Source: Limnohabitans sp. Rim8 (GTDB taxonomy: Bacteria; Pseudomonadota; Gammaproteobacteria; Burkholderiales; Burkholderiaceae_C). From it: a stretch of DNA of 64,000 nt. The notes beneath the pieces were generated by a model. It did no database searches. It worked only from the letters and a program-made list of their open reading frames with translations, and was not told the origin of the DNA. The translations under genes were made by a program, and so were the position numbers. Shown here one piece after another: positions 10,293-61,785 of the stretch. Every line of letters begins with the position of its first letter. Positions within the stretch are counted from its first letter, which is position 1. Location of the stretch: contig NZ_CAMBNZ010000005.1 of assembly GCF_945869175.1 (NCBI RefSeq), positions 1 to 64,000 on the forward strand, given 5' to 3'.

Positions 10293-10320
10293 GTGGTTTG
10301 CCCACAGGAAAAAAGTGTGA

Positions 10321-10666
10321 AGCCCGCCGATAAGCCGGATTCTGTGCACAGCGGTTGCCCGCTGCGTGACCGCCATTACTCTGGGCCGGGGGTCGCCCAC
10401 CCGGCTCGATGCTACCTACCCGCCAACTCACCCCGCGGAACCACAGGGAGAAGGGATGCGGCGAACCACACCCATTCAGGAAGGCCTACTTGGTATTGCT
10501 GCGCGTAGAGATTGCCCGTTTCACCCGAACTCAATCGGCTCGTCTCTGTTGCTCTGATCCTCACCTCACGGTGGAGAGGCGTTACCTCCTACGCTGTCCT
10601 GTGCAGTCCGGACGTTCCTCCAGTGCTTCCTTTCGGAAATTGCACCAGCGACGGTCTGGCGTGCTT
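10321..10666 (-). ncRNA. rnpB: RNase P RNA (class A)
   Basis: Minus strand contains GAGGAACGTCCGGACTGCACAG near the 5' end and CACAGAATCCGGCTTATCGGCGGGCT at the 3' end, RNase P hallmarks; exact ends approximate. Confidence 0.95.
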
Positions 10667-10770
10667 CACCACTTGATTATCGCCTGCGGTCATGTGCTGA
10701 TGTCGCTCAGGGTCTGCCGTTTCGCGCACAATGGTTTTTTGCCCCTGCCATTTCTCATCGGAGACCGCCC

Positions 10771-23770: not shown

Positions 23771-24628
23771 ATGACACGCCTTTGGCTCTCGCTCATTGGG
23801 TTTCTGCTGCTGCAAGGCTGCAGCGCCATCAAACTGGGCTACCAGCAACTGCCTACCTTGTCTTATTGGTGGCTCGACAGCACGGTGTCGTTCAGTGGCT
23901 CGCAAACGGCGGGGGCCAAACAGGCCATAGACAACCTCTACCAATGGCACCGCAGCGAAGAGTTAACAGCTTATGCCGAACTGCTTCAGCGCGCCCAGGT
24001 TTTGTCTGCCGGCCCTGTGCAGACAGAACAAGTGTGTCGTGTGTGGTCCGACGTGCAAACCCGACTGGACACTCTGATGCGCGAGGCTGTGGTGCAGGCG
24101 GCCCCAGTCGCCATGGCCTTGGGCCCTCGGCAGCTGAGCCATTTGGCTCGGCGCTGGGAAAGCCAAAACGAAGAATGGGAAAAAGAATGGTTGCTGGGCA
24201 GCGTCAGTGAGCGTCTTGAACGTCGTTTGGACAAAACACTGGAGCGCTACCGCTCCTTTTATGGTGAATTGACGCCAACTCAGGTCAGCTTGGTCAAGAC
24301 GCAATTGGCCCAATCCCCTTGGACGGCGGAGTGGGGCCGACAAGACCGCCAACGCCGACAACAAGACTTGCTCTCCACCTTACAGGGCATCAGCCAATAC
24401 AAGCTTTCGCAGGTCGAGGTGGAAGCCCAGCTTTGGGGGGTGTGGCAACGCTGGATGAAGCCGCCAGAGGCCGCTCAGCGTGCTGTGGTGCAAAACTTGT
24501 CGCAACGTGCCTGCGAGAACTTGGCTCAACTGCACAACGCCGCGACACCTGAGCAGCGCCAGCAGGCCACGCGCAGGCTGCGTGCCTATGAAAAAGATGT
24601 CAAAGACCTGGTCAAACCCAAACAGTGA
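23771..24628 (+). CDS. DUF6279-like lipoprotein
   Basis: MTRLWLSLIGFLLLQGCSAIKLGYQQLPTLSYWWLD; lipobox LLQGC. Confidence 0.75.
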   Translation: MTRLWLSLIGFLLLQGCSAIKLGYQQLPTLSYWWLDSTVSFSGSQTAGAKQAIDNLYQWHRSEELTAYAELLQRAQVLSAGPVQTEQVCRVWSDVQTRLDTLMREAVVQAAPVAMALGPRQLSHLARRWESQNEEWEKEWLLGSVSERLERRLDKTLERYRSFYGELTPTQVSLVKTQLAQSPWTAEWGRQDRQRRQQDLLSTLQGISQYKLSQVEVEAQLWGVWQRWMKPPEAAQRAVVQNLSQRACENLAQLHNAATPEQRQQATRRLRAYEKDVKDLVKPKQ

Positions 24629-24736
24629 TCCGCTCGAACACCTTGAATACTCCTGTCAATCCAAAAGTTTCAAGCCGTCTGAATTGATTGAATAAATCGT
24701 TTTTCAGTGTTTTTTGCATTTCGACCCTTGCCCTTG

Positions 24737-24764
24737 TTGCACCGCAGCAAAATTCACGTAGAAT
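24737..24764 (+). promoter_or_regulatory. Candidate sigma70 promoter for the sRNA/leader upstream of ilvA
   Basis: TTGCAC - 16 nt - TAGAAT. Confidence 0.5.
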
Positions 24765-24770
24765 TGTGAA

Positions 24771-24860
24771 CAAGCGTGCTTTTTTGCACGCACCTGTTGT
24801 CTCCTCCACCCTCTGAAAAGGTGGATTTGCCCCAAGCCGCAAGGCTTGGGGCATTTTTTT
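24771..24860 (+). ncRNA. Candidate ~90-nt sRNA (or ilvA 5' leader/attenuator) with three stem-loops and an anti-SD motif
   Basis: Stem 1 GCGTGC-T6-GCACGC; linker ...TGTTGTCTCCTCC; stem 2 TCCACC..GGTGGA; terminator GCCCCAAGCC-GCAA-GGCTTGGGGC-aTTTTTTT. Confidence 0.55.
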
Positions 24861-24921
24861 GGCCGCTATGATCAAGGCCACTCTCTTTTGGAGGCGGGGC
24901 TTGCCTTCGCCTGCGCTGGCC

Positions 24922-26469
24922 ATGACCACCAAACACCTCAAACCCGCCGACTACCTGATCAAAATTCTGAACGCCAAGGTCTATGACGTCGCCACCGAGT
25001 CGGCTTTGGAGTTCGCCCCCAACCTCTCTCGCCGCTTGGGAAACCAGGTGCTGTTGAAGCGTGAAGACCAGCAACCCGTGCACAGTTTCAAGCTGCGCGG
25101 GGCTTACAACAAAATGGCGCACTTGACGCCCGCCCAGCTGAAAAAAGGCGTGATCTGCGCCTCGGCTGGCAACCACGCCCAGGGCGTGGCGCTCAGCGCA
25201 AGCCGCCTGGGCACCAAGGCGGTGATCGTGATGCCCACCACCACACCGCAGGTCAAGGTCGACGCGGTCAAAGGCTTTGGGGGCCATGTGGTGCTGTTCG
25301 GCGACAGCTATTCCGATGCCCACAACCATGCATTGAGTCTGCAAAAAAAACAGGGCCTGACCTTTGTACACCCCTTTGACGACCCGGATGTCATCGCGGG
25401 CCAGGGCACCATTGCCATGGAAATGCTGAGCCAGCACCAAGGTCCGCTCGATGCGGTGTTTGTGGCCATTGGCGGTGGTGGTCTGATCAGTGGCGTGGCC
25501 AACTACATCAAGGCGGTGCGCCCCAAGGTGAAGGTGATCGGCGTACAAATGAACGACTCGAATGCCATGATGCAATCGGTTGCCGCCAACAAACGCTTGA
25601 CCTTGACGGACGTGGGCTTGTTCTCTGACGGCACGGCCGTGAAGCTGGTGGGCGAAGAAACTTTCCGGGTGGCCCGCAACTTGGTGGACGCTTACATGAC
25701 GGTGGACACCGACGCGGTGTGCGCGGCCATCAAAGATGTGTTTGTCGACACCCGCTCGATCGTGGAGCCCGCGGGGGCCCTGGCCGTGGCCGCCATCAAG
25801 CAGTATGTGGCCACACACAAAACCAAAGGCGAGACCTACGCCGCTATTTTGTGCGGCGCTAACATGAACTTTGACCGCCTGCGCTTTGTGGCCGAGCGGG
25901 CCGATGTGGGCGAAGAAAAAGAAGGGCTCTTTGCCGTGACCATTCCCGAAGAGCGGGGCAGTTTCAAGCGCTTTTTGGAGTTGATCGGTAGCCTGCCAGG
26001 CGGGCCGCGCAACGTGACCGAGTTCAATTACCGCATGAGCGACTCCGATCAAGCCCATGTGTTTTTGGGCCTGGGCACGCACGGCAAGGGCGAGAGCACC
26101 CAGATCACCGCCAACTTCAACAAGCAACAATTCAAGGCGCTGGACCTGACGCACGATGAACTGGCCAAAGAGCACATCCGCCATATGGTGGGCGGGCACT
26201 CGGATTTGTCACAAGACGAACGGTTGCTGCGCTTTGAGTTCCCGGAGCGTCCCGGGGCACTGCTGAAATTTTTGAGCCTGATGCGCCCGGGCTGGAACAT
26301 CAGCCTGTTTCATTACCGCAACCAAGGCGCCGACTACGGCCGCATTTTGGTGGGCATTCAGGTACCCAAACGAGACCACAAGGCCTTTGACAAATTTTTG
26401 CAGGCTTTAGGTTATCCCTACGCAGAGGAAACAGACAACCCGGTTTATCGTTTGTTTTTAAGGGCTTGA
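24922..26469 (+). CDS. ilvA: Threonine ammonia-lyase, biosynthetic (two C-terminal ACT-like domains)
   Basis: MTTKHLKPADYLIKILNAKVYDVATES...HSFKLRGAYNKM; ACT region FPERPGALLKFLSLM. Confidence 0.96.
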   Translation: MTTKHLKPADYLIKILNAKVYDVATESALEFAPNLSRRLGNQVLLKREDQQPVHSFKLRGAYNKMAHLTPAQLKKGVICASAGNHAQGVALSASRLGTKAVIVMPTTTPQVKVDAVKGFGGHVVLFGDSYSDAHNHALSLQKKQGLTFVHPFDDPDVIAGQGTIAMEMLSQHQGPLDAVFVAIGGGGLISGVANYIKAVRPKVKVIGVQMNDSNAMMQSVAANKRLTLTDVGLFSDGTAVKLVGEETFRVARNLVDAYMTVDTDAVCAAIKDVFVDTRSIVEPAGALAVAAIKQYVATHKTKGETYAAILCGANMNFDRLRFVAERADVGEEKEGLFAVTIPEERGSFKRFLELIGSLPGGPRNVTEFNYRMSDSDQAHVFLGLGTHGKGESTQITANFNKQQFKALDLTHDELAKEHIRHMVGGHSDLSQDERLLRFEFPERPGALLKFLSLMRPGWNISLFHYRNQGADYGRILVGIQVPKRDHKAFDKFLQALGYPYAEETDNPVYRLFLRA

Positions 26470-60795: not shown

Positions 60796-61785
60796 ATGAG
60801 CAAACGATTCACCCTGAAAACCCTGGCGGCCTTGGGCGCCGCAGCACTGGGCACGCTGCTGGTCAGCACAGGTGCACAAGCCCAACAAAAACTCAAATGG
60901 GCCCACGTCTACGAGACGTCTGAGCCCTATCACACCGAGTCAGTGTGGGCTGCCGAAGAAATCAAAAAGCGCAGCAACGGCAAGTTCGACATCCAGGTCT
61001 TCCCCGCGTCCACATTGGGCAAAGAAACCGACATCAACCAGGGCCTGACCCTGGGTACGGTGGACATGATCATCAGTGGCCCTTCATTTGCGGCGCGAAC
61101 CTACCCGCGCTTTGGCATTGCTTACTACCCCTTCATCTTCCGCGATGGCGACCACCTGATCGCTTATTCCAAAAGCCCCGTGTTCCAGGAAATGGTCAGT
61201 GAGTTCCGCGCCAAGACAGGTATCCAGGTCACGGCCTACACCTACTACGGTGCCCGTCACACCACCGCACAAAAAGCCTTCACCAACTGCGCTGGCATGA
61301 AGGGCATCAAGATCCGCGTGCCCGATGTACCGGCTTACCGCGCCACACCCGAAGCCTGCGGCGCCAACCCTACCCCCATTGCTTTTGCTGAGGTGTATCT
61401 GGCCCTGCAAAACGGCACTGTGGAGGCCCAGGAAAACCCCCTGACCACGATTGAAGCCAAAAAGTTCTTTGAAGTCCAAAAGGCCATCATGCTGACAGGC
61501 CACATTGTGGACGGACTGACCACCCAGATTGCGCCTCATCTTTGGAACAAGCTCTCAGATGCCGAGAAGAAAGTCTTCACCGATGTGACGCAAGAAGCAG
61601 CCGTGCGGGCCACAGCCAAAATCAAAGCACGCGAAGCCGAGTTGGTGGACGAGTTCAAGAAAAAAGGTCTGCAGATTGTGCAAGTCGACCGCAAGTCCTT
61701 CCAGGACGCTGTGCTCAAAAACAAGCCTCTGACTTCGATGGGCTTCACGCAGGCTGACTTCGACAAAATCCAAGCGGCCAAGTGA
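60796..61785 (+). CDS. TRAP transporter substrate-binding protein (DctP family)
   Basis: LKWAHVYETSEPYHTESVWAAEEIKKRSNGKFDIQVFPASTLGKETDINQGLTLGTVDM. Confidence 0.95.
   Translation: MSKRFTLKTLAALGAAALGTLLVSTGAQAQQKLKWAHVYETSEPYHTESVWAAEEIKKRSNGKFDIQVFPASTLGKETDINQGLTLGTVDMIISGPSFAARTYPRFGIAYYPFIFRDGDHLIAYSKSPVFQEMVSEFRAKTGIQVTAYTYYGARHTTAQKAFTNCAGMKGIKIRVPDVPAYRATPEACGANPTPIAFAEVYLALQNGTVEAQENPLTTIEAKKFFEVQKAIMLTGHIVDGLTTQIAPHLWNKLSDAEKKVFTDVTQEAAVRATAKIKAREAELVDEFKKKGLQIVQVDRKSFQDAVLKNKPLTSMGFTQADFDKIQAAK

Follow-up and report, generated by a model that had tools for sequence, protein, structure and literature searches.

A candidate PhaR operator overlaps the promoter of an RF02278 small RNA upstream of ilvA in Limnohabitans

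Small RNAs (sRNAs) of the Rfam family RF02278 ("Betaproteobacteria toxic sRNA") are widespread in Betaproteobacteria. The family includes four double-hairpin RNAs from Burkholderia cenocepacia (ncS03, ncS05, ncS27 and ncS62), and the word "toxic" refers to their inhibition of E. coli growth (PMC5688073). Overexpression of ncS27 slows growth and its silencing speeds growth; the same work reported an unexplained motif common to the upstream regions of the sRNAs (PMC5688073). Four Herbaspirillum members have also been described. In Bordetella pertussis, RNase E shortens the related S17L RNA to 67 nt, and the product is presumed to act by blocking ribosome sites (PMC11722255). The S17 promoter has been mapped (-35 TTGCAT, -10 TACTAT, 17-bp spacer), and its repression by an unnamed factor was postulated by the authors (PMC11722255). 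Growth inhibition of E. coli upon overexpression is reported for RF02278 members but not for S17S in strain BL21. Here we describe an RF02278 unit directly upstream of ilvA in a 64,000-nt stretch of DNA from Limnohabitans sp. Rim8 (the window). We propose that this sRNA is probably repressed by PhaR, a regulator of polyhydroxybutyrate (PHB) storage, and would be made during PHB storage to curb carboxylate uptake.

Positions 24798-24859 of the window match the RF02278 covariance model with 58.2 bits (gathering score, 50). A first-pass annotation of the window had presented the unit as a candidate sRNA. It belongs to an already described family, and the sRNA itself is no discovery. The new element is the control region, in which the promoter is overlapped by a candidate PhaR operator. 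The parts of the unit are as follows.

24735..24749, + strand: PhaR-type operator TGTTGCACCGCAGCA, a palindrome overlapping the -35 box (conservation; footprinted PhbF motif)
24737-24742, + strand: -35 box TTGCAC (sequence)
24759-24764, + strand: -10 box TAGAAT (sequence; spacing to the operator kept in relatives)
24770..24860, + strand: putative primary transcript, ~90 nt (start placed from the -10 box, end from the terminator)
24774..24791, + strand: 5' leader hairpin GCGUGC-U6-GCACGC (sequence, fold, relatives)
24798..24807, + strand: anti-Shine-Dalgarno (anti-SD) stretch UGUCUCCUCC, with UGUCUCC (24798-24804) unpaired (sequence, fold, conservation)
24798..24859, + strand: RF02278 core, predicted mature double-hairpin RNA, ~62 nt (Rfam)
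24805..24825, + strand: second hairpin UCCACC/GGUGGA (fold, compensatory changes)
24828..24860, + strand: intrinsic terminator, GCAA loop and T7 (terminator scan, test in relatives)

The -35 box sits within the palindrome, which reads TTGTTGCACCGCAGCAA with its flanks (24734-24750). A plain sigma70-like promoter, TTGCAC-16-TAGAAT, had been annotated here: both boxes and the 16-bp spacer are present and the spacing is conserved, but the overlapping operator means that the promoter is not a plain one. The window operator is an exact fit to the genus consensus TGYTGCNNNGCARCA, and this consensus was found with 0-1 mismatch of 15 in 85/96 sRNA promoters (28/30 in the genus, 26/30 in the family and 31/36 named loci). 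Among 960 shuffled sequences, none matched the consensus exactly and four matched with one mismatch. The sRNA promoter was not listed by a promoter scan with a stricter rule (9/12 matches). Its position is nevertheless supported, because the spacing of a TANNNT box behind the operator is conserved in relatives: the box lies 8-11 bp downstream in 84/85 near-exact operator copies (in 80 copies the distance is 9 or 10 bp), and 7% of shuffles had TANNNT at 8-10 bp.

In Herbaspirillum seropedicae, the motif TG[N]TGC[N]3GCAA was footprinted with PhbF (PhaR), which acts as a repressor of phaP1 and phbF (PMC3206438). The Limnohabitans genome encodes PhaR (PF07879, 100 bits) and contains seven exact copies of the palindrome. 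Four of these are intergenic and stand before the sRNA, kup and two phasin genes, and the remaining three seem to be chance occurrences. In sister genomes, the palindrome lies before phaR, phasin genes (PF09361), phaZ (PHB depolymerase; TIGR01849), kup and the sRNA. It is mainly because the same sites precede all of these genes that we call the palindrome a PhaR operator. Within the literature searched, we found no paper linking PhaR to RF02278. The palindrome upstream of kup, a K+ transporter gene, is conserved in the genus (L143, L262, L270, L297, L306, L309, L312), which suggests that kup belongs to the PhaR regulon. In one sister genome (L314), a PhaR-type palindrome also precedes a gene for a TerC-family membrane protein.

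PhaR is found in 146/151 genomes of the family. Because a contrast between genomes with and without PhaR was therefore impossible within the family, it was sought across the order. Among 250 genomes of the order, RF02278 was found in 160 and PhaR in 172. The contrast used 109 sRNA copies, 73 from genomes with PhaR and 36 from genomes without it; one copy came from the family to which the window belongs. When up to one mismatch was allowed, the operator was present upstream of 19/73 copies in the former and 0/36 in the latter. With at most two mismatches, the counts were 38/73 and 1/36. The core TTGCRNYGCA occurred at 40/73 and 1/36 copies, respectively, and 37/52 genomes with PhaR had this core at one copy or more, as against 1/28 genomes without PhaR. 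This fuller pattern was used because the shorter core TTGCNNNGCA alone also occurs at 4/36 copies in PhaR-lacking genomes. In several PhaR-lacking lineages, RF02278 copies share another palindrome-like element, ATTAGATAATTCTAAT, close upstream (L194, L197, L198, L201, L203, L204, L205, L209, L210). It is possible that this element is the site of another regulator.

Several points weigh against control by PhaR. With PhaR encoded by nearly every genome of the family, the presence/absence contrast draws on other families. The Fisher p values of this contrast (3e-4 with at most one mismatch and 9e-8 with at most two) ignore phylogeny and overstate the support, because related genomes are not independent. 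Nearly half of the sRNA copies outside the family in genomes with PhaR have no close operator match. The window operator is one base off the PhbF consensus, the last base (GCAG, not GCAA). Finally, the family relative S17 was reported to be BvgA-responsive (PMC11722255). Together with the responses of the B. cenocepacia members to biofilm, starvation and glucose, in which PhaR is not implicated, the copies without a close operator and the tie of S17 to Bvg would fit an ordinary RF02278 sRNA that responds to starvation or growth phase. The palindrome would then be the site of another regulator or part of a strong promoter. We consider this explanation unlikely, although it is the most serious alternative: in the genus, the palindrome also stands before phaR, phasin genes and phaZ, it differs from the footprinted PhbF motif at a single base, and it is nearly absent at the sRNA in genomes that lack PhaR.

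The preferred reading, regulation by PhaR, would work as follows. PhaR would repress the sRNA promoter through the operator over the -35 box. When PHB is stored, PHB granules would bind PhaR and titrate it off the DNA, and the ~90-nt RNA would be made. This RNA is probably cut to a ~62-nt form starting near UGUCUCCUCC. The unpaired UGUCUCC, perhaps with Hfq, would pair with GGAGACA ribosome-binding sites and lower translation. The targets would be mainly binding proteins of the tripartite tricarboxylate transporters (Bug/TctC) and of the tripartite ATP-independent periplasmic (TRAP) transporters (DctP), which take up carboxylates, plus some catabolic genes. In this way, carbon storage would feed back on carbon uptake. 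The 7-8 fold increase of ncS03 and ncS05 in glucose medium (PMC5688073) counts in favor of this mechanism, as does the postulated repression of the S17 promoter (PMC11722255). If it is correct, carbon storage is linked to translational control of carbon uptake, and the PhaR operator gives a specific candidate for the switch of RF02278 sRNAs.

The predicted targets come from a survey of 864 kb of the same genome, containing 735 genes. GGAGACA is the exact complement of the unpaired UGUCUCC. In the ribosome-binding zone, GGAG is followed by ACA 23 times, the commonest of the GGAG+NNN combinations; the permuted letters AAC and CAA follow it 8 times and 2 times. In coding sequence, ACA after GGAG is rare (8/1363). 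GGAGACA stands at the ribosome-binding site of 10/19 TctC (Bug)/DctP binding-protein genes vs 13/729 other genes (p = 6e-12). The identities of the example target genes were checked by Pfam. Further genes with GGAGACA include aceE and AMP-binding enzymes. The strongest sRNA duplex among the 735 genes, -20.8 kcal/mol, was predicted for a dctP gene in the window at 60796.

60796..61785, + strand: TRAP solute-binding protein DctP, predicted target (PF03480; ribosome-binding site GAGGAGACAACGATG)

In summed duplex energy, the real seed did not exceed seeds with permuted flanks, which tells against the target prediction: 7/40 permuted seeds were equal or better at -14 kcal/mol and 23/40 at -16 kcal/mol. 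As overall duplex scores thus gave the real seed no advantage, the target prediction is based on the GGAGACA motif together with the gene class. Moreover, the enrichment of GGAGACA could be a general habit of ribosome-binding sites. As a separate observation, an open reading frame (ORF) rich in lysine, alanine and proline (VTTPKKKVAAPVK...) at ~3043 (- strand) of the window also has a GGAGACA ribosome site; its first 150 residues gave no Pfam match.

The predicted fold of the unit has -45.5 kcal/mol, whereas 200 dinucleotide-shuffled sequences gave -26.2 +/- 3.0 (z = -6.5). Because no shuffle was as good, the fold is not due to chance. The elements described by the first-pass annotation are there: the 6-bp leader hairpin with its U6 loop lies at 24774-24791, and the linker UGUCUCCUCC is partly occluded by the second hairpin, in that its final UCC is paired whereas UGUCUCC stays free. 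The annotated 10-bp terminator with a GCAA loop and U7 was found independently by the terminator scan. Its stem, UGCCCCAAGCC-GCAA-GGCUUGGGGCA, occupies 24828-24853 and has 11 pairs including an outer U-A pair, followed by T7 at 24854-24860. A single RF02278 copy is present in the genome. Of the good genomes, 35/36 in the genus and 117/134 in the family carry RF02278. In an alignment of 60 sequences, the anti-SD columns are invariant except for the first base. A larger set comprised 181 distinct sequences, all with the same anti-SD stretch because the search pattern required it. In this set, the first pair beyond UCCA/UGGA in the second hairpin is canonical in 178/181 sequences with compensated changes (1000 shuffles: mean 142, maximum 154); thus, the compensatory substitutions named by the annotation as a check are present in relatives. 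RNAalifold on a MAFFT alignment missed the terminator because the stem slides in the alignment. Therefore, the terminator was tested alignment-free, and a hairpin was found in 175/181 sequences with 130 different 5' arms. Most members of the genus, but no wider group, keep the 5' leader hairpin, in which one closing pair shows a compensated change; by analogy with S17, this hairpin is probably removed by processing. In some genomes of family f7, up to nine RF02278 matches with differing promoters were observed (G214; L239, L240); in G214, two matches stand in tandem (G214:C1:1646160 and 1646538).

We compared the unit with its known relatives. The B. cenocepacia RNAs share with it the covariance-model match, the anti-SD linker, the short second hairpin, the terminator and the predicted pairing with ribosome-binding sites. 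In contrast, the window unit has a leader hairpin before the core and is a single copy beside ilvA, and its promoter is overlapped by a PhaR-type operator, a control absent from the descriptions of the B. cenocepacia RNAs. S17 resembles the unit in its terminator and in the conserved anti-SD region at the 5' end, and its leader is removed by RNase E. However, S17 adjoins coq7, is described as derepressed in the Bvg+ mode and has a long leader (~120 nt). A Bordetella-like locus (L154) reads TTGCATCGCACAAAAAAACTCGGTACTAT and contains the operator core TTGCATCGCACAA; its -35, its -10 and the spacer length of 17 bp are those mapped for S17.

Outside the family, a review describes MmgR (alpha-r8) of Sinorhizobium meliloti as a PHB-linked sRNA under negative control by AniA (PhaR) (PMC8401924). 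The likeness would lie in an sRNA tied to PHB storage and a PhaR-type regulator. However, MmgR is alphaproteobacterial, and membership of the window unit in its family (RF00519) was rejected at 17.5 bits, below the gathering score of 41. MmgR lowers phasins, whereas the predicted targets of the window sRNA are carboxylate-binding proteins. The Neisseria sRNAs NmsRb / NgncR_163 (RF02877) resemble the unit in the order of hairpin, UCUCCUC linker, hairpin and terminator and in having metabolic targets, but they are tandem copies, unlike the single copy here. Membership in RF02877 was rejected at 30.6 bits (gathering score, 52). Among the Rfam models for NmsRb, anti-hemB, Spot 42 and mmgR, all matches fell below the cut-offs. 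A broader proposal, to which we give even odds, is that RF02278 sRNAs are the riboregulatory arm of PhaR in PHB-making Betaproteobacteria, shutting carboxylate uptake and catabolism; PhaR would then be the unnamed repressor of S17, and PhaR-lacking lineages would have been rewired to the ATTAGATAATTCTAAT-type palindrome. PhaR control of the sRNA, if true, would parallel alphaproteobacterial AniA/PhaR and MmgR, and would be relevant for engineering PHB producers.

The relation of the unit to the gene behind it must also be considered.

24867..24872, + strand: TATGAT, -10-like element of a putative promoter of ilvA (conserved in relatives)
24922..26469, + strand: ilvA, biosynthetic threonine ammonia-lyase, independent downstream gene (TIGR01124, 795 bits)

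As annotated at first, the unit ends before ilvA: T7 ends at 24860 and the ATG is at 24922. By its nearest IlvA proteins, the genome is that of a Limnohabitans-like member of the Comamonadaceae. In most of the family, the unit immediately precedes ilvA and shares its orientation (this holds for nearly all of the best-scoring copies fetched), and a strong terminator stands between the promoter and ilvA. These features would suit control of ilvA through termination in a cis-acting attenuator or 5' leader; the first-pass annotation had offered an ilvA attenuator as an alternative. This alternative is not supported, because a conserved -10-like box of ilvA, TATCAT/TATGAT, follows the sRNA terminator. 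The box was found in 55/59 loci, a count that covers ilvA-adjacent loci only, since the non-adjacent class is unreliable (many of its members carry ilvA by tblastn). In addition, the sRNA and operator occur without ilvA within reach (L007, L017, L020, L035), and the sRNA lies elsewhere in other families. None of the small ORFs across the unit is rich in branched-chain residues (Ile/Val/Leu), in agreement with the annotation, which had seen no Ile-rich leader peptide. No alternative antiterminator hairpin appeared in the minimum-energy or centroid fold. On this sequence evidence, we regard attenuation as very improbable and reject it. The trans-acting anti-SD sRNA favored by the annotation agrees with the RF02278 score above the gathering score, the compensatory changes and the units lacking a neighboring ilvA. 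In several relatives (L002-L006, L008), the ATG of ilvA lies only a few nt behind the TATCAT box, suggesting that the ilvA mRNA is leaderless there.

With its intrinsic terminator and an upstream gene in the same orientation, the unit might serve only to terminate transcription of that gene, the lipoprotein-like ORF that ends at 24628. We rejected this idea also, and hold it to be the least probable of all: that gene is separated from the terminator by a conserved promoter with its operator, by UGUCUCCUCC and by the second hairpin, and the lipoprotein-like gene is recognizable in few relatives only. Elsewhere in the window, a class A RNase P RNA (RF00010, 193 bits) is located at 10315-10667 (- strand).
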